Shown: positions 1,815 through 10,417 of the stretch, one piece after another
Numbering within the stretch: position 1 is the stretch's first letter
Layout: every line of letters begins with the position of its first letter
Assembly (NCBI RefSeq): GCF_030409055.1
Contig: NZ_CP116619.1
Coordinates: forward strand, 1,149,628 to 1,213,627
DNA length: 64,000 nt
From: Trichocoleus desertorum NBK24
GTDB lineage: Bacteria; Cyanobacteriota; Cyanobacteriia; FACHB-46
Direction: 5' to 3'
Notes under the pieces: generated by a model
The model's database searches: none
The model's input: the letters and a program-made list of their open reading frames with translations, nothing else
What the model was told of the DNA's origin: nothing
Translations under genes and position numbers: made by a program

Positions 1815-2960
1815 TTAGGAATGCTTAAGAAGCAAATTTTGACTGCAATCAGCTTGACAATGGCGTTCTGCTAATCTCTCGATCGCTTGCAATAACTGCC
1901 CTTGATCCCAGCCTTGATAAAGAGAAGCTGCGATCGCACATCCCCCTGCACCAACACCTTCTTTCACATATCCTTGCTCATAAGCTTGCAACTGAGGATA
2001 GCGAGCGTCTGTAAATTGGAACTGTGTGGCTAAGAGAGGAACAGTTCCAATCAGCGTTGCTAAACCAACCGTGTCGCCTGTAGCATCTTCCGCAACCCAA
2101 CGAGTGGTACCAACTACAATCTGCTCCGGTTGCCATGACAAAGCATAAGTAGTGGCGATCGCTCGTAACAAAGCATAAACCGCTAGCATTTGCGTGCCTC
2201 CAGCCAGCATAACGCCACAACTCCGACTGGCCGCGATCGCCATGCCTGCCACTACAATTTGCATTGGATCGCCCACTGCCGCTACCAACTCAAGCGGATC
2301 AACCTCTGAGGCCAAGAGACCCGCTTGCTGCAACCCTGCCTCAACAATGGCCCACTTCTGAGCATGGTTGCAGGTGGGATGACTGCTATTGACCTTACCA
2401 GCCGCAGCCATACCGAGACCTGTCAAGATTGCTAAAGCCGTAGTAGTACCACCAACCACACATTCTCCCAAAATCAAATAACTCCGAGGAACTTGGGCTG
2501 CTAGCTGCTGCCCCCAAGCCAAGCCTTGCTCCAAAAGATGTTGAACGATTGGTAGCTTCAAGGCTTGCCCCTGGCTCAAGCAAGCCGCAGCAGTGCCACC
2601 CAAATCAATGCAAGGAACCGTTGGTGGCACAGGTAAGCCCGCGTTAAATAAGTAGAGGGGAATCGCTTGGGCCTCAACTACAGCCCGTGAAATTAGAACT
2701 GGAGACGCGCCAACGTGGAGAGGCGGTAGAGCGTGCTGAGGATGCGCTTGAGGGCCATGATAGAGAAATTCAGCATCGGCGATCGCGGTGTAGAGTCGGT
2801 CTTGTGGAGTCGCACCAGCCGCAGAAATACCTGGAATCAAACCTGTGGCTGTAAATCCTAACACACAGGCAAATACAGGAGAGCGGTGTTGATAGCGTTG
2901 GAGCCATTGCTGTCCCCGTTGCGCTTGCGTATATACCCGAATCATGGCGGATGAGGTCAT
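1815..2960 (-). CDS. cobT: Nicotinate mononucleotide-dependent phosphoribosyltransferase CobT (cyanobacterial type)
   Basis: The 381-residue product matches the TIGR00303-type CobT proteins of cyanobacteria and archaea, predicted to move phosphoribose from nicotinate mononucleotide to a lower-ligand base in cobamide synthesis (cyanobacteria make pseudocobalamin). Recognisable blocks are the F-T-A-T-G-L-I-P-G-I-S region near 36-47, the G-E-C-V-V-G-G-T-T-T-A glycine/threonine loop near 165-175, and the V-A-A-V-G-D-P-M-Q region near 225. The length is normal. Its start overlaps the stop of the upstream DUF2232 gene as TAATG (one shared base), which points to translational coupling. An internal ATG five codons later is a possible alternative start. 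Confidence 0.8.
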   Translation of the reverse strand: MTSSAMIRVYTQAQRGQQWLQRYQHRSPVFACVLGFTATGLIPGISAAGATPQDRLYTAIADAEFLYHGPQAHPQHALPPLHVGASPVLISRAVVEAQAIPLYLFNAGLPVPPTVPCIDLGGTAAACLSQGQALKLPIVQHLLEQGLAWGQQLAAQVPRSYLILGECVVGGTTTALAILTGLGMAAAGKVNSSHPTCNHAQKWAIVEAGLQQAGLLASEVDPLELVAAVGDPMQIVVAGMAIAASRSCGVMLAGGTQMLAVYALLRAIATTYALSWQPEQIVVGTTRWVAEDATGDTVGLATLIGTVPLLATQFQFTDARYPQLQAYEQGYVKEGVGAGGCAIAASLYQGWDQGQLLQAIERLAERHCQADCSQNLLLKHS

Positions 2961-3760
2961 TAGTCAACCTCGTAATCCAGAATCACCTGTACCCACTTAG
3001 GAGGCGCTGGAATTGGGTTGCCCAGTCGCTCTAACAAGAGCCAAGCCGCCAAATGGACGATAAATAGGTAAACAATATTGTTAATCACAATCATGACAGC
3101 GGCGATCGCCTGAACCAAAGCTAACTCAGGCTGAATCAGTAACCCTAGCTTCACGAAGCCCCATTCCACCAGCTCGGTAATCTGAGTCGTGATATAAGCC
3201 CACAAGTCGTCACCCAACAAGAGCGACACCAACCAAATGCGGAAAAAGAAGCCGAAAGTACCAATAATGGTGCCAATACTGATAGAAATAAACCAATTGG
3301 CCCGACGACGCCATAAAGCTCCCAATTGAACTCCCAACAGCCCAAAGGGAACAAGAAATAGAATGCTACGGGTTGGCCCCATCAGCACTGATAGCAGCAA
3401 TCCTGAGACCAAAGCTGACATCCAGGCTGCCCGATGGCCCCAGCGCAAGTAGACCAGAGCGATCGGAACCGGAAAAAAAATCCGCAACAAGGGTCCCATC
3501 GGGAAATAGTAGTTGACCAGCCAGATTAAGCTAGCGGTACTAGCCAAAAATGCCGTCTCCACCATTGCTAAGGGAGCCCCAGACTGGACATGAGGTTCAG
3601 CTAGAGCCAATGGAGTTTGGGGATCAAGAGAATGGGCAGCTCGCCCAGCCTCTGTAGAGGGGGTAGAATCCGCTGAAGGCTTGGGCAACCTCTCTGGTGG
3701 ACTTCCTGGTAGCCTTTCTGGCGGTCTCTCGGAAGGGCGGTCTTCGGAAGAATCACTCAT
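2960..3760 (-). CDS. DUF2232 membrane protein
   Basis: This is a 266-residue protein with a proline/serine-rich, probably cytoplasmic and disordered N-terminal tail (residues 1-60) followed by about six hydrophobic segments (about 66-250). The short charged end contains P-P-K-W-V-Q, which I recognise from cyanobacterial DUF2232 (YybS-like) proteins. The biochemical role of the family is not established; its multi-helix fold resembles small transporter or S-component proteins. It is the first gene of a two-gene unit with cobT, overlapping by one base (TAATG), so a role linked to cobamide or its precursors is conceivable, but that is inference from position only. Confidence 0.7.
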   Translation of the reverse strand: MSDSSEDRPSERPPERLPGSPPERLPKPSADSTPSTEAGRAAHSLDPQTPLALAEPHVQSGAPLAMVETAFLASTASLIWLVNYYFPMGPLLRIFFPVPIALVYLRWGHRAAWMSALVSGLLLSVLMGPTRSILFLVPFGLLGVQLGALWRRRANWFISISIGTIIGTFGFFFRIWLVSLLLGDDLWAYITTQITELVEWGFVKLGLLIQPELALVQAIAAVMIVINNIVYLFIVHLAAWLLLERLGNPIPAPPKWVQVILDYEVD

Positions 3761-3904
3761 GCACAGTTCGGTAAGCTAGCAGATCTACTCTATACATAAA
3801 CTTTAGAACCTATCAGCAGACTCAGCGAGTTCAGCCGGAAGACTGCCATGAAGCGATCGCAGTCTCGACTTGTGTAGTTAGATAAACTGAGCTGAGCGCG
3901 CCAA

Positions 3905-4609
3905 CTAGACCAAAAGCCGCTCTAGAGCATGCATGTCAGGGATGCAGAGAATCTCGCGATCGCGCACAATTAATTCTTTCTTCTCTAGCTTATTCAAAAC
4001 CCTCGTGACAGTTTCGCGAGCCAGACCGCTCAAGCTACTAAGTTCTCGGTGCGGTAAGTTAGGAATCTCAACTCCTTTTTGGCTGCGTTTCCCCTGACCT
4101 TCAGCCAAAAACAACAAGATGTCAGCTACCCGCGAGGTACTATCTGACTCACGCAGCCGCAACCGCCGATTTACCTGGCGCAGTCGCCGAGCCATCAACT
4201 GAGCGAGTCGAATTCCCGCCATTGGCTCTGAATTAATTAACTGCACAAAGTCCTGCGCTGGCATATTCCCAATCACAGTCGGAGCCAGCGTAATCACGTC
4301 TGTGGAGCGAGGTACTTCATCGAGAGGAGCCATTTCACCAAACAACTCACCCTTGCCCAAAATGTTTAGGGTTACTTCTTTGCCATCCAGGTTATAAGTG
4401 CGAATCTTAACCCAGCCATCCAAAATGAAGTAGACAGAGCTACCCCAATCATTTTCCAACAAAATTACCTGACCGGATGGGTGCGTACGCATGACCACAT
4501 GTGCAGTGGCCTTATCGACCATAGCCTCTGGTAAGCCTTCAAAGAAAGGAGCAGAGCGAATTAGTGCAGGGCTAGAGTGAAGTTCACGAGGGCTATACCG
4601 ATCTTCCAT
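3905..4609 (-). CDS. Crp/Fnr-family transcriptional regulator
   Basis: The 234-residue protein has an N-terminal cyclic-nucleotide-binding beta-roll (about 20-140) and a C-terminal winged helix (recognition helix about 188-210, L-S-S-L-S-G-L-A-R-E-T-V-T-R-V-L). The phosphate-binding cassette has G-E-M-A at 91-94 and R-S-T at 101-103, the arginine and serine/threonine arrangement needed to hold cAMP in Crp proteins, so effector binding is plausible. There are no N-terminal cysteines for an Fnr cluster. It is not NtcA, whose recognition helix and C-terminus differ. It is monocistronic and diverges from the large acidic protein gene across 529 bases. The regulon is unknown. Confidence 0.85.
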   Translation of the reverse strand: MEDRYSPRELHSSPALIRSAPFFEGLPEAMVDKATAHVVMRTHPSGQVILLENDWGSSVYFILDGWVKIRTYNLDGKEVTLNILGKGELFGEMAPLDEVPRSTDVITLAPTVIGNMPAQDFVQLINSEPMAGIRLAQLMARRLRQVNRRLRLRESDSTSRVADILLFLAEGQGKRSQKGVEIPNLPHRELSSLSGLARETVTRVLNKLEKKELIVRDREILCIPDMHALERLLV

Positions 4610-5138: not shown

Positions 5139-8100
5139 GTGACTTCTCAGAAGGACCAAATCCAAACACTGATCGCTGAAATCGACAAAGTTCTCCAGAA
5201 ACCCAGTACCCGTTTACCTTGGGTCATGTCAGGAGAGACAGCTCAGCAGCGCCGGGTGTTAGAGCGAGTTCGCAGCTATCTCGTTTCTCTACAACAAAGG
5301 ATGGCTGCGGACGAACAGTTCTCCCAGGCTAGAACCAAATCTAACCTCTCGACCTATGATATTCAGTACCAGCCGACTCAGGCTACAGATTATGCAAGGG
5401 CTCCGATCGCGCCCATAGCGAGTAGTCAAGATGAAGCTGCGCGGCAAATCTTGCAGGCTGTCGTTCAGGAAATGGATCATTTACGCACTAGCCTGACGCA
5501 GCCTCTACAAGCAGATTTAGAAGCTTTACGGCAACAGCGCGAGTCATTGGTGCAAGAAATTAGACACTTAGAAGCACAACGACAGCACTACTCTCTAGCG
5601 CAGCAGCAAGCCAATCAACAAAAAATTATCAGCGAATTCTTGCAGGTGTTGATGGGGCGCTTACAAGATAGCCTCGCCCAGCAAGTCGCTCAAGCTTTGA
5701 CGACGCTACAGCCTCAAACACCTTACGAACTCAACCCAACTGAACCGATCGCCCTCAGTGGTCGGATGACGACTGATCAACCTTTGCTCAATCCAGGGCA
5801 ACGCTTAGAGCAACTGCAAGTACTGCAAGCTCGCTCCGATCAACTGTTGATGAACCTAGATTCGACTCTCAGTGTTGTCTTTGAAGCCCTACAGAGGAAT
5901 GTTCAAAGCTACCAAGAGTCGCTATCTACTGGCTTGGAGCGGATGCATGGCCTGGGCCAGCAGGGAGAGGTGATGTTCACAGCTTTGGTGAGTCACCTAG
6001 CCCAGCAGTTAGGCCGAGAAGCGTCTTCTTTCCTGTATTCTTCCCTACCTCCCTCCGAGTTGGAATCGGGTACCGCTACTAATGCTGAAACTGCTCCTCA
6101 ACAGACTTCGATTACTCCTGCTCCAGAGGTTCCTGCTCCAGAAGTTCTTGCTTCAGAGGTAAGTACGGCTCCGCCTTCCCCGGTTAACCCTCCTCAGACT
6201 CCTGTATCCCAACTCAGCTATGATTCAGCGGCTTTGGACCTGCCTTATGCGGGGGCTGAGCTACGCCAAGAGAGCGATCGCTCTTCTCTGTTGCCAGAAC
6301 TGGATGATGCGGACATTTTGGAAGAATTGAACCTAGAGGGGCTGGATCTCTCAGGTGTGGAATTAGAGGATGTTGAATTAGATAGCGATAATTTGGATGC
6401 TTTGCTGGACGTAGTCCTCAGTAGCAATAGTAGTAGCTCCAGCGCTAATCCATCACCTCTAGCTCAGAGCGATCTGCCTGATACTTCAACTCAACCAGGA
6501 TGGCAAGGTTCTCCAGCTACACCTTCAGCCGACCTAGCAACATCTGCTTCGGAGCTAGAGTTTTTAGAGCAACTCGATATTGCATTGCAGCATCCAGATG
6601 CAGAACCTGAGTTGGCAAATGCAGATTTGGGAGTTGGTTCTGAGTTATCCGGATTGGGATGGGTCGCAGAGACCGCTAGCCAGAAGCCTGGTAATTCTGA
6701 CACTGAGTCAATGCCAGAGACTGATGACCTCTATGCTGATTTGTTTGGCTCCAACGATTTCGGTGTTGAGATGGAAACACAGTCAGAGCTAGAAGACTTG
6801 GCCGCATCTCCATCCACACCACCTGCGATCGTGGATTTGCCCCTAGTCAACCCAGCCGATGTAGCAGATGCCTGGGTTGGGCCTGTAGAAATGGCAGAAG
6901 CCGAACCTGACCAAAGTAATGCTTTGTCCTCTGTTCAAGCAAGTGACTTATTTGCAGACTTGGAAGCGACAGCACCCGTAGCCAATATAGAACCTCTGGT
7001 GGGGATAGAAGAGGCGGGGATAGAAGAAGAGGGGACGAAAGAGGCAATTTCATCTGATCCAACCTTAACCAAGAACGAACTAGACAGAAACGATTTAGAT
7101 GAGTTGGATCAGACAGGCACGACCCTAGAAGATTGTCTATTTGCAGATGCCGTTGAGCCTAGCAGCGACGAGAACTCCGAGCTACTCAATTTCAATCCGC
7201 CCCCTACAGAAGCTGTAGCTCAACCTTTAGAGGATGTAGAACCTACAAACGCCACAGCTCCTGCCGAAGATCCTGCCGAGATAGATTTGGATGATTTTAG
7301 GTCGAGCTTTATAGACGAGTCAGATGAGTTGGGTGATACCACTTCACTCGCGGAATTGGCAGAGCTATTGGGAGGTGCCGAAGTGGTAACCGAAACACCC
7401 TCAACGGAAATACCCACAACTATCTCTCCTAATTTATTGAGCCAATCTAATTTAGAAGATGCTGAGAGTGAGAGTGAGCTACTGTTGTCAGAGTTCTCAC
7501 TCCGAGACGTGCCAGTATTAAGTGCAGATGATACTAATCAAACTCTGGAGGATGCTTATGTGCCAGCTGCTCCTGAAGAGTATTTAATTGCGATCGATGA
7601 TGATTTAGGAGATGAAACCGAAGTTAGCTTGTGGCTAGACGAGAATATTGTCCAGCAATTGAATGAAGACCTCTTTAGCTTAGAAAGTTCGGATGGTCTG
7701 TTTTTTGAAAGTGCCGATGCCAACGAGAATAGAGCACCTCAAACTAGCGGATCTGAAGATAGAGGCTTTGAGAGTAGGGAAACGACCCCTAGCACCCCTA
7801 GCAATATAGAAGATGCAGATCTAGAATCTGCTGATCCATTGGCCCTAGACGTGCCAACGCCTCCAGCAAGCTTAAACGAGGCTCAGTCATCCGATTCTCA
7901 GGTTTGGGATAACCTTACCTTAGAAGATTTTGTGGAGACGTTACCGGAAACATTGCCTACAGTCGATGCAGAAACACCTGAAGCCCTACCAGAGGACTTG
8001 GCGGCTTTCTGGGAAGGTACTGATTTTCCCTCGACTTCTACCGAGCCTCCCGACTTAACTTTGGATGCGTTTGACTTATTAGCAGATTTACCGGAGATCG

Positions 8101-8315
8101 CTCCGCCATCCCCGGCAGAGAAAGTGATGCCTACAGCCCCCACGACTCAGCTTCCCGCCAATCCACCCACAGAACTGGATACGCAAAGCCTAACCATTGA
8201 TGATGCGTTTATAGGTTTTTCAGAAGCGGCGAACCAGCCAGCAGTAGACAATAGCGATCGCAATGTAGAACCTTCCGATCCACCCAACCAGGCCAACGAA
8301 AAAAAAAAGATCTAG
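5139..8315 (+). CDS. Large acidic, low-complexity protein with N-terminal coiled coil; possible first half of a frameshifted fusion
   Basis: The 1058-residue product starts at GTG. Residues 1-300 are helical with coiled-coil character (two E/Q/L-rich stretches around 100-170 and 215-275). Residues 310-1050 are a very acidic, P/S/T/E/D/L-rich low-complexity region with many loosely repeated short D-L-x-D or L-E-D-x-D patterns, probably disordered. No enzyme motif or membrane segment is seen. The frame ends at TAG 8313-8315, just after a run of ten A (8299-8308). Reading minus one from that run leads directly into the Hsp70-like frame with no stop, and the P/E/S-rich linker continues across the junction. 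The product may therefore be made alone and also as a fusion of about 1760 residues. Confidence 0.7.
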   Translation: MTSQKDQIQTLIAEIDKVLQKPSTRLPWVMSGETAQQRRVLERVRSYLVSLQQRMAADEQFSQARTKSNLSTYDIQYQPTQATDYARAPIAPIASSQDEAARQILQAVVQEMDHLRTSLTQPLQADLEALRQQRESLVQEIRHLEAQRQHYSLAQQQANQQKIISEFLQVLMGRLQDSLAQQVAQALTTLQPQTPYELNPTEPIALSGRMTTDQPLLNPGQRLEQLQVLQARSDQLLMNLDSTLSVVFEALQRNVQSYQESLSTGLERMHGLGQQGEVMFTALVSHLAQQLGREASSFLYSSLPPSELESGTATNAETAPQQTSITPAPEVPAPEVLASEVSTAPPSPVNPPQTPVSQLSYDSAALDLPYAGAELRQESDRSSLLPELDDADILEELNLEGLDLSGVELEDVELDSDNLDALLDVVLSSNSSSSSANPSPLAQSDLPDTSTQPGWQGSPATPSADLATSASELEFLEQLDIALQHPDAEPELANADLGVGSELSGLGWVAETASQKPGNSDTESMPETDDLYADLFGSNDFGVEMETQSELEDLAASPSTPPAIVDLPLVNPADVADAWVGPVEMAEAEPDQSNALSSVQASDLFADLEATAPVANIEPLVGIEEAGIEEEGTKEAISSDPTLTKNELDRNDLDELDQTGTTLEDCLFADAVEPSSDENSELLNFNPPPTEAVAQPLEDVEPTNATAPAEDPAEIDLDDFRSSFIDESDELGDTTSLAELAELLGGAEVVTETPSTEIPTTISPNLLSQSNLEDAESESELLLSEFSLRDVPVLSADDTNQTLEDAYVPAAPEEYLIAIDDDLGDETEVSLWLDENIVQQLNEDLFSLESSDGLFFESADANENRAPQTSGSEDRGFESRETTPSTPSNIEDADLESADPLALDVPTPPASLNEAQSSDSQVWDNLTLEDFVETLPETLPTVDAETPEALPEDLAAFWEGTDFPSTSTEPPDLTLDAFDLLADLPEIAPPSPAEKVMPTAPTTQLPANPPTELDTQSLTIDDAFIGFSEAANQPAVDNSDRNVEPSDPPNQANEKKKI
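8299..8308 (+). promoter_or_regulatory. A10 homopolymer, candidate slippage/frameshift site
   Basis: Ten consecutive A follow G 8298. In the upstream frame the codons read GAA AAA AAA AAG ATC TAG. The string contains A-AAA-AAG, the classic minus-one slippery heptamer. Slipping back one base, or adding one A during transcription, makes the next codon GAT (8309), which is in the downstream frame and open to 10417. A six-base inverted repeat (8310-8315 with 8339-8344) lies immediately after but is too close to act as a usual ribosomal pause element, and no Shine-Dalgarno-like stimulator is visible upstream. Transcriptional slippage on the A run is therefore the likelier mechanism, if there is one. 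Confidence 0.5.
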
Positions 8316-8380
8316 CAGCCCCTAGCCCTGAAGCGAGCCTAGATACTGACATCAAAACTGAGCCGGAAAATCCCAGCGTT

Positions 8381-10417
8381 TTGCCTAACCCATCAGAACC
8401 GCAAAATTTGCCAGCCAAACCTCAAGCTTGGGAAGTCGCGGAGGAAGAGACAAAACGGGCTTGGTATTTAGGAATTGACTTTGGCACCACAGGCTTGTCA
8501 GCTGTGTTACTCGATCGCGTCAGTCAGAAGCTGTATCCCATCTATTGGCTAGAGCAAGCACTAGATGTAGAAACTAAATCTTTTCGCTTACCGACTGCTA
8601 TCTATCTATCAGCTCAGTCATTAGCATCCCCTGAGTTACCTGAAAGTAGTGTTGCGGTAGGCTCTCTGGCTCTTGCAATGGCCTTGCGCGATCGCGATGC
8701 CTCAGTGGCCCATGCTTTAGCTCTACCAGAAACGACAGGGCTGACACCAGAATTACTCATTCAGAATCTGAAGCCATACTTGAAAATCGGCATTCCTCAT
8801 TACGCTGCCGTCACTGACAACTGGGAGCCTGTAGCTCAGTGGTCCGATTATCGCCAGATTCCTCTGAGTTGGTTACAGCAAGCACTACAGACCTTGTTAC
8901 GGACGCTAAACCCCGTTACTGACAACACCTCTAATCTAGTCTGTGGTGCCACTGGTTTAGAGACAAACGTTCTCAAGGCTGCCTTGACTCAGCTAGAAGG
9001 AGTGATATTGGGCTATCCGGCCAATTGGCCTGATACCTATAATTTCAATCTGAGAGAAGCAGTTTTAACCGCTAAATTGGTAGCTCGCCCCGAACAAATC
9101 TTCTTCATCGAAGATGCGATCGCTGCTGTTTTATCGGGGTTAAGAAATCCTCACCGCCCCCAATGGAAAGGCGGTACCCTTGCAGTCAATGCGGGAGCCA
9201 CCACCACCGAAATGGTCATGGTAAACCTGCCGGATCATCTCCAGGATCTAACCTATAGTGACTTCAGCCTGCGTAGCGTACCCTATGCGGGAAATGTCAT
9301 TGATCAAGATATTATTTGTCAACTCTTGCATCCTCAATGGTTCCGCCAACCCCGGACTGCCAATCGGGGGAATATCGTAGAGACTCAATGGCATTGGCAA
9401 GCCGATCAGGTTGCCTTGGATGGCATTCCTTGGGACAGCTTAGGGCTAGACACACTACCCCTACCGATTGCGGGCGAACCCGATGTTGAAACTCGGTACC
9501 GCCTCCAGCAACGCCTAGAAAGCTCGCCCCTAGGCCAAGGTTTATTGGAAGCAGCTAGACACCTAAAGCTGATTTTGCAACACGAAGACCAGTTTACGTT
9601 CGAACTGGGCGATCAGCGCTGGATGATTATGCGGCGACAATTGGAAAGCCAAGTATTTCTCCCTTTCATTCAACGTTTGAATCGAGAACTAAATGTACTG
9701 TTGAGCCAGACAGGTTTACCGATTCAAGCCATTAATCAAGTAGTCTGTACAGGTGGAACGGCTTCTTTGCCCGCAATCGCCCGTTGGCTCCGCCAGAAAC
9801 TGCCAAACGCCACGATTATTCAGGACACTTATCAAAGCGATCGCGGTTTGAGTTTGGGTAATAGAGTTGCCCCTCCAGAGGGGATTTACGGTGCAGAAAC
9901 AAGTGCTGGGGAAGCAGACCTAGACATACCTGTTCCGGGCGATCGCTTAGTTTCTTGTAGCCGTGTCGCCTATGGTTTAGCAGCATTGCCGTTGTATCCG
10001 CAAGTTCTAGACCTACCTCGACAGCAATATGGCGATTATTTTCTGCTCCTAGAATTGTTGCGAGCTTTTCCAGAACAGCCTGTCTCTGTAGCAGGGATTA
10101 TGCAACTTCTAGAGCGTCGTGGCATTAACACCCATGCTTGCCAGCTACATATTCTGGCGCTTTTAGAAGGACATTTGCCACCAGGCCTAATACCTTCACA
10201 ACAGGATAGAAATTCTCTGACAGAGGCATCGAGACAATATCTAGATGCTCAAGCTCTCACCGCCGCCCCCCTATTCTTCAAGGAGGGAAATCAAATCTAT
10301 CGTCCCAATCTAGAGCAATGTCAGCGCTTGCGGGAGTACCTGAGCCAAATCATGGTAAACACTCACCAAACTTTGGAAGAACCGTTCGCGGTCAATTTGC
10401 GCTTATCAGTGCAGTAG
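8381..10417 (+). CDS. Hsp70/actin-fold ATPase-like protein (second half of a possible fusion)
   Basis: The product has the nucleotide-binding signatures of the Hsp70/actin superfamily: phosphate-1 loop G-I-D-F-G-T-T-G (about residues 31-38), phosphate-2 region N-A-G-A-T-T-T-E-M (about 268), and an adenosine motif C-T-G-G-T-A-S-L-P (about 459-467). A C-terminal helical part follows with no DnaK-type substrate domain or EEVD tail. The only start codons ahead of the phosphate-1 loop are TTG (8381 or 8408). The first in-frame ATG comes about 100 codons in and would remove that loop. The frame is open upstream to 8255 and joins the acidic protein across the A10 run, so the natural N-terminus may come from the upstream gene. 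The substrate is unknown. Confidence 0.75.
   Translation: MPNPSEPQNLPAKPQAWEVAEEETKRAWYLGIDFGTTGLSAVLLDRVSQKLYPIYWLEQALDVETKSFRLPTAIYLSAQSLASPELPESSVAVGSLALAMALRDRDASVAHALALPETTGLTPELLIQNLKPYLKIGIPHYAAVTDNWEPVAQWSDYRQIPLSWLQQALQTLLRTLNPVTDNTSNLVCGATGLETNVLKAALTQLEGVILGYPANWPDTYNFNLREAVLTAKLVARPEQIFFIEDAIAAVLSGLRNPHRPQWKGGTLAVNAGATTTEMVMVNLPDHLQDLTYSDFSLRSVPYAGNVIDQDIICQLLHPQWFRQPRTANRGNIVETQWHWQADQVALDGIPWDSLGLDTLPLPIAGEPDVETRYRLQQRLESSPLGQGLLEAARHLKLILQHEDQFTFELGDQRWMIMRRQLESQVFLPFIQRLNRELNVLLSQTGLPIQAINQVVCTGGTASLPAIARWLRQKLPNATIIQDTYQSDRGLSLGNRVAPPEGIYGAETSAGEADLDIPVPGDRLVSCSRVAYGLAALPLYPQVLDLPRQQYGDYFLLLELLRAFPEQPVSVAGIMQLLERRGINTHACQLHILALLEGHLPPGLIPSQQDRNSLTEASRQYLDAQALTAAPLFFKEGNQIYRPNLEQCQRLREYLSQIMVNTHQTLEEPFAVNLRLSVQ

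Follow-up and report, generated by a model that had tools for sequence, protein, structure and literature searches.

Two reading frames overlap at a run of ten A

We analysed a 64,000-nucleotide window from the complete chromosome (5,458,034 bp; 5.46 Mb) of the cyanobacterium Trichocoleus desertorum NBK24, in which two overlapping reading frames occupy positions 5139-10417 of the plus strand. The upstream frame, ORF A (5139-8315), starts at a GTG at 5139, stops at a TAG at 8313-8315 and has the C-terminus ...ANEKKKI. Its 1058 aa comprise an N-terminal helical coiled coil (about residues 1-300) and a long acidic linker rich in P, E, S and D. The downstream frame, B, lies in the -1 frame relative to ORF A and is open from 8255 to 10414, with its stop at 10415-10417. 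Both frames are open in the overlap at 8255-8315, which contains a run of ten A (A10; 8299-8308), the longest homopolymer of the window. Around this run the zero frame reads GAA AAA AAA AAG ATC TAG and includes the heptamer A_AAA_AAG. The TAG at 8313-8315, two codons past the run, would define the end of a short product; the third frame is closed by a TAG at 8323-8325, five codons past the run. The B frame, which would be entered at the GAT at 8309 through one extra A in the mRNA, encodes 702 aa (8309-10417) consisting of linker, Hsp70-like ATPase and a C-terminal helical domain.

The original prediction for this locus had identified the run, the stop, the heptamer and the GAT, and both coordinates and frames are correct. 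It had also stated that the -1 frame stays open through the Hsp70-like part and that no ATG precedes its phosphate-1 loop. Both statements hold: the earliest start-like codon in the B frame is a TTG at 8381, and the earliest ATG comes only about 79 codons into the ATPase domain. We found no clear Shine-Dalgarno (SD) sequence before TTG 8381 in the window. The products, estimated at about 1058 and 1760 residues, are computed at 1058 aa (short) and 1759 aa (long), with the predicted junction sequence of the long product being ...KKKDLAAPSPEASLDTDIK.

Divergently upstream, and outside the proposed slippage unit, a cNMP-binding Crp-family regulator is encoded on the minus strand (3905-4609); the same relation is found in 16 families and 40 genera. 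It is the first of three minus-strand genes at 1815-4609, followed by those for a DUF2232 membrane protein and a CobT-like protein, and these neighbours recur in 13-16 families. Such conserved surroundings across families indicate that the gene has long resided on the chromosome and does not belong to a mobile element. The gene and the Crp-family regulator may be connected through regulation.

The A run is conserved at the junction

To follow the run beyond the window, we compared 119 loci of the gene, in which the N-terminal domain and the ATPase were located by profile searches. The longest A run in the linker is bimodal in length: nine A in 16 loci, ten in 51 and eleven in 7, with the other 45 loci at 3-7 and none at 8. 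The 74 loci with A9-A11 span 16 families and 47 genera, so the pattern extends across the phylum; whether the run is conserved in homologues was a check that the original prediction had proposed. Within the B domain no A run exceeds eight in any locus, and the run lies inside the overlap in all 47 loci that have both overlapping ORFs and a run. It also remains A10 where the flanking sequence has diverged, as in three species of genus g1 and in 6/6 species of g54, the latter with strongly diverged flanks; species within one genus are non-independent samples.

In the other two species of the window genus, A10 occupies the same position within diverged flanking sequence, and the two frames are related in the same way. 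Nine or eleven A, either of which would have counted against the original prediction, were not seen in these congeners. The prediction had left room for a single fused gene broken by a genuine indel, or for an assembly error in the homopolymer, and the two domains do form one fused ORF in many relatives, a point that it had proposed to check by comparing homologues. However, independent assemblies of the two congeners and of many genera have the run and the frame break at the same place. Because the two congeners share both A10 and frame relation, we reject the assembly-error and recent-indel options, to which we give practically no credence.

The loci occupy four states. In state (i), overlapping ORFs have the run in their overlap (47 loci). 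State (ii) is a single fused ORF that retains the run (14 loci for which the N-terminus is available, mainly from families f32 and f25, and additionally G019-like cases truncated at contig ends, e.g. G011). State (iii) is fused without a run (f13, f24, f21, f23 and part of f32), and state (iv) comprises run-less genes that are separate or coupled (the Laspinema group and genus g20 of f20). Most lineages that lack the run are simple fusions, and only a few belong to state (iv). Two products are thus not required everywhere, since many run-less lineages are fused and the Laspinema genes are separate. Six run-bearing loci (G203, G045, G272, G246, G253 and G144) have an N-terminal frame that is interrupted elsewhere or far away, and in 13 loci the A frame was deduced as the longest frame open ahead of the run or was based on an interrupted frame. 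Mapped on a B-domain tree, a quick and approximate tree with some long branches, the run has been gained or lost at least nine times.

The separate genes of state (iv) raise the question of whether A and B are simply two proteins, with B initiating alone by coupling, at TTG 8381 or another codon, and the A run being incidental. A and B lie 84 bp to 3 kb apart in the Laspinema-group loci, the run-less g20 loci have an ATGA stop/start overlap, and f3 species have an ATG one codon past A9. Close relatives with separate genes and their own ATG had been named in advance as a refutation; no such arrangement is seen in the window genus, and separate genes do occur in the distant Laspinema group. Independent initiation also leaves both the conserved run and its position in the overlap unexplained. 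No ATG precedes the ATPase domain in the window gene, and the same holds for 30 of the 44 -1 loci, whose earliest B-frame ATG falls within that domain. TTG 8381 lacks a clear SD sequence, and many relatives encode one fused protein. We consider two separately initiated proteins highly improbable in the window.

Long A runs are scarce in these genomes. A pattern search of both strands for exact A10, with non-A on either side, found one copy in the 5,458,034-bp source genome, and this is the junction run; runs of at least nine A number 11 with both strands counted. Among 59 genomes chosen as relatives, nine species have no exact A10 other than the junction run (G000, the source genome, and G001, G011, G019, G020, G026, G051, G053 and G058), and six further species have two to four genomic A10, the junction run among them.

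The run is kept irrespective of reading frame

Among the 74 run-bearing loci, B is in the -1 frame relative to A in 44, in the +1 frame in 13 and in frame (0) in 17. At least 16 frame changes can be placed among run-bearing rows on the same approximate tree. Even within a genus, pairs with equal run length differ in frame, as in g101 (A10, +1 and -1), g11 (A10) and g35 (A9). The run is thus kept irrespective of the B frame. A site kept in any frame fits slippage by RNA polymerase, since slippage adds or removes A and yields all frames.

The stops that follow the run are positioned consistently with this reading. The frame one base ahead of B meets a stop no more than four codons past the run in 60/74 loci, compared with about 21% at control positions, and both non-B frames are closed within 35 codons in 72/74. 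Because the non-B frames stop early, mRNAs of other lengths would yield a short product that ends just past the Lys codons, regardless of which frame lies upstream.

The original prediction offered either transcriptional slippage or ribosomal frameshifting. The latter, a programmed -1 shift on A_AAA_AAG with the mRNA unchanged, cannot be dismissed for the window genus, where the heptamer is correctly phased, could also support such a shift, and would give an identical peptide; ribosomes also slip on A runs, and the 44 -1 loci are compatible with it. Yet this mechanism would need the downstream frame always to be -1, and the 13 loci in the +1 class and 17 in frame 0 do not meet this expectation. 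A -1 shift cannot reach B in the +1 loci, where the frame it would enter closes within four codons in 11/13, and so -1 ribosomal frameshifting cannot account for that class. Seven bases would suffice for the heptamer, but runs of 9-11 are kept and the junction has hardly any of length 7 or 8. Neither a stimulatory RNA structure nor an upstream SD-like element was evident as a conserved feature, within the limits of weak, simple tests. We did not find conserved downstream structure (mean z -0.52 vs -0.22 for controls; +0.4 to +0.8 in the window genus, with +0.8 in G000), and an SD-like sequence before the run is slightly commoner than in controls (21/74 vs 17%). The presence of the run in 74 loci from 16 families, with B in all of -1, +1 and 0, favours the transcriptional alternative, and we regard the ribosomal one as unlikely.

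Variation in the frame relation could also arise in the DNA itself, if replication slippage at the run toggled the long form between cells as a form of phase variation. A10 is mutable, runs of 9, 10 and 11 occur in related species, and chance alone would leave one-third of frames open (17/74 observed). Run length and frame are nevertheless stable within genera (g54, 6/6 A10 and -1; g1, 3/3; g3, 3/3 A9 and -1; eight f32 species, A10 and frame 0; one genome per species), and the protein is without any surface-antigen feature. We therefore think phase variation very unlikely.

We also considered the A-tract as an internal promoter element for B. This was rejected, as every run falls in a stretch that is open in both frames, with stops close behind it.

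An Hsp70-like ATPase and a coiled-coil region

To characterize the predicted products, we modelled the ATPase and C-terminal helical domain (8435-10414; 660 aa) with AlphaFold (pLDDT 80.6, pTM 0.84). The nucleotide-binding domain covers approximately model residues 8-465 and the C-terminal helices approximately 510-640. Superposition on DnaK gives Z 23.7 with an rmsd of 3.6 over 372 residues at 18% identity, which meets the criterion for an Hsp70/actin-type nucleotide-binding fold; on this modelled structure, B is assigned to that fold. As in DnaK/Hsp70, the phosphate-1 DxGTT and adenosine GG motifs are retained. Unlike DnaK, B has S, N or D at the position of the phosphate-2 Asp, does not match the Hsp70 family over its full length (PF00012; 12.8 bits, below the cut-off of 20.6), and carries C-terminal helices where Hsp70 has its beta substrate-binding domain: no Hsp70 beta-sandwich was found in B, where residues 510-640 are modelled as helices and one short beta hairpin. 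Nor did we find a full-length match to PilM (19.2 bits over 66 residues; cut-off 27).

The N-terminal region of ORF A has 38% mean column identity over 29 aligned loci, and its AlphaFold model contains long helices only (pTM 0.26). ORF A has no Pfam or curated-family match, and no anti-phage defence family was matched by either A or B.

Proposed mechanism and relation to known systems

Selection against A/T runs emerges at 9 nt in many bacterial genomes (PMC1088944), and the dnaX run is A9 in Thermus and A10 in Chlorobi-type sequences (PMC3711429). The run-length threshold observed here fits both, and together with the frame evidence this leads us to take slippage as the mechanism. Three properties expected of a slippage site are met: about nine or more A at the frame junction (A10 here), conservation of the run while its surroundings diverge, and alternative-frame stops near the run that give a defined short product. 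We propose that 5139-10417 is very probably a single gene that contains a site of programmed transcriptional slippage, a conclusion inferred from DNA without transcript or protein data.

According to this proposal, RNA polymerase would slip on A10 and generate mRNAs with more or fewer A; that it does so, and at what yield, is inferred. Faithful mRNA would give the 1058-aa short product, consisting of the coiled coil and acidic tail and ending in EKKKI. One extra A, or two fewer, would lead into the B frame and give the 1759-aa long product with ...ANEKKKDLAAPSP... and the Hsp70-like ATPase, while the remaining mRNA lengths would reach a stop in a few codons and presumably give the short product as well. 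A single promoter could thereby supply a mixture of short and long subunits. By analogy with DnaX gamma and tau, we infer that the short form is functional and may oligomerise with the long form via the coiled coil; a mixed short/long oligomer would be the simplest way for the two to act jointly.

The closest parallel is dnaX of Thermus thermophilus and Chlorobi (PMC1088944, PMC3711429), likewise a chromosomal gene with A9-A10, a short and a long product, other-frame stops soon past the run, and a family with both single-ORF and two-ORF forms. The genes are unrelated, however, and here B occurs in all three frames within one family and one phylum; an Hsp70-like ATPase forms the second half. 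Fusions of orfA and orfB in IS elements of Deinococcus and Nostoc 7120 also join overlapping ORFs through A8-A10, so that a cyanobacterial case is known (PMC1088944), whereas the present gene is single copy and non-mobile with conserved neighbours in 16 families. Escherichia coli dnaX uses the same heptamer, A_AAA_AAG, for -1 ribosomal frameshifting and likewise makes two products from one gene; in contrast, the present gene has no conserved stimulators, has +1 and 0 relatives, and has a run that exceeds what the heptamer needs.

To our knowledge, few chromosomal genes outside insertion sequences use transcriptional slippage, and the present one is spread over at least 16 cyanobacterial families. 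The mechanism is already known; the gene family would be new as its user, within the literature searched. The portions of that literature available to us contain no description of slippage in a cyanobacterial Hsp70-like gene, though an earlier computational listing may include it unnamed (134 further candidate clusters, PMC3711429). A single family with -1, +1 and 0 forms and the same A run provides a natural test of which feature is under selection. In many genomes, gene finders would split this Hsp70-like protein, itself unstudied, or annotate it as a pseudogene with a frameshift. A more speculative possibility, which we hold only tentatively, is a phylum-wide, frame-independent device in which the slippage rate of RNA polymerase sets the ratio of coiled-coil adaptor to ATPase-fused form. 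This ratio may act as a physiological read-out, since nucleotide pools or temperature can alter the slippage rate.

Variant loci and a second long A run

Several loci depart from the general pattern. In genus g3 (L061, L062 and L063), B lacks the C-terminal helical domain, with open frames of 512-528 aa, and an ATG lies one codon past A9, so that B could be made there either by fusion or by initiating separately. The run-less loci L066 and L067 of genus g20 have their ATGA stop/start overlap after the SD-like AAGAAGGA, which suggests that translational coupling replaces slippage. In L151, L152 and L156 (genus g84, f32), the fused ORF contains broken A-rich remnants (e.g. AAGATGAAAAAGAAG) at about the place where relatives carry A10; this looks like a slippage site decaying on an in-frame background, and run loss on fused backgrounds illustrates how such a device decays. 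Elsewhere in the source genome, the only A run longer than A10 is an A11 at G000:C1:1751723-1751733 (L182). It adjoins a transposase-like frame of the other strand, in which it reads as a T run near the frame start, and could be a further slippage site of the type seen in insertion sequences.
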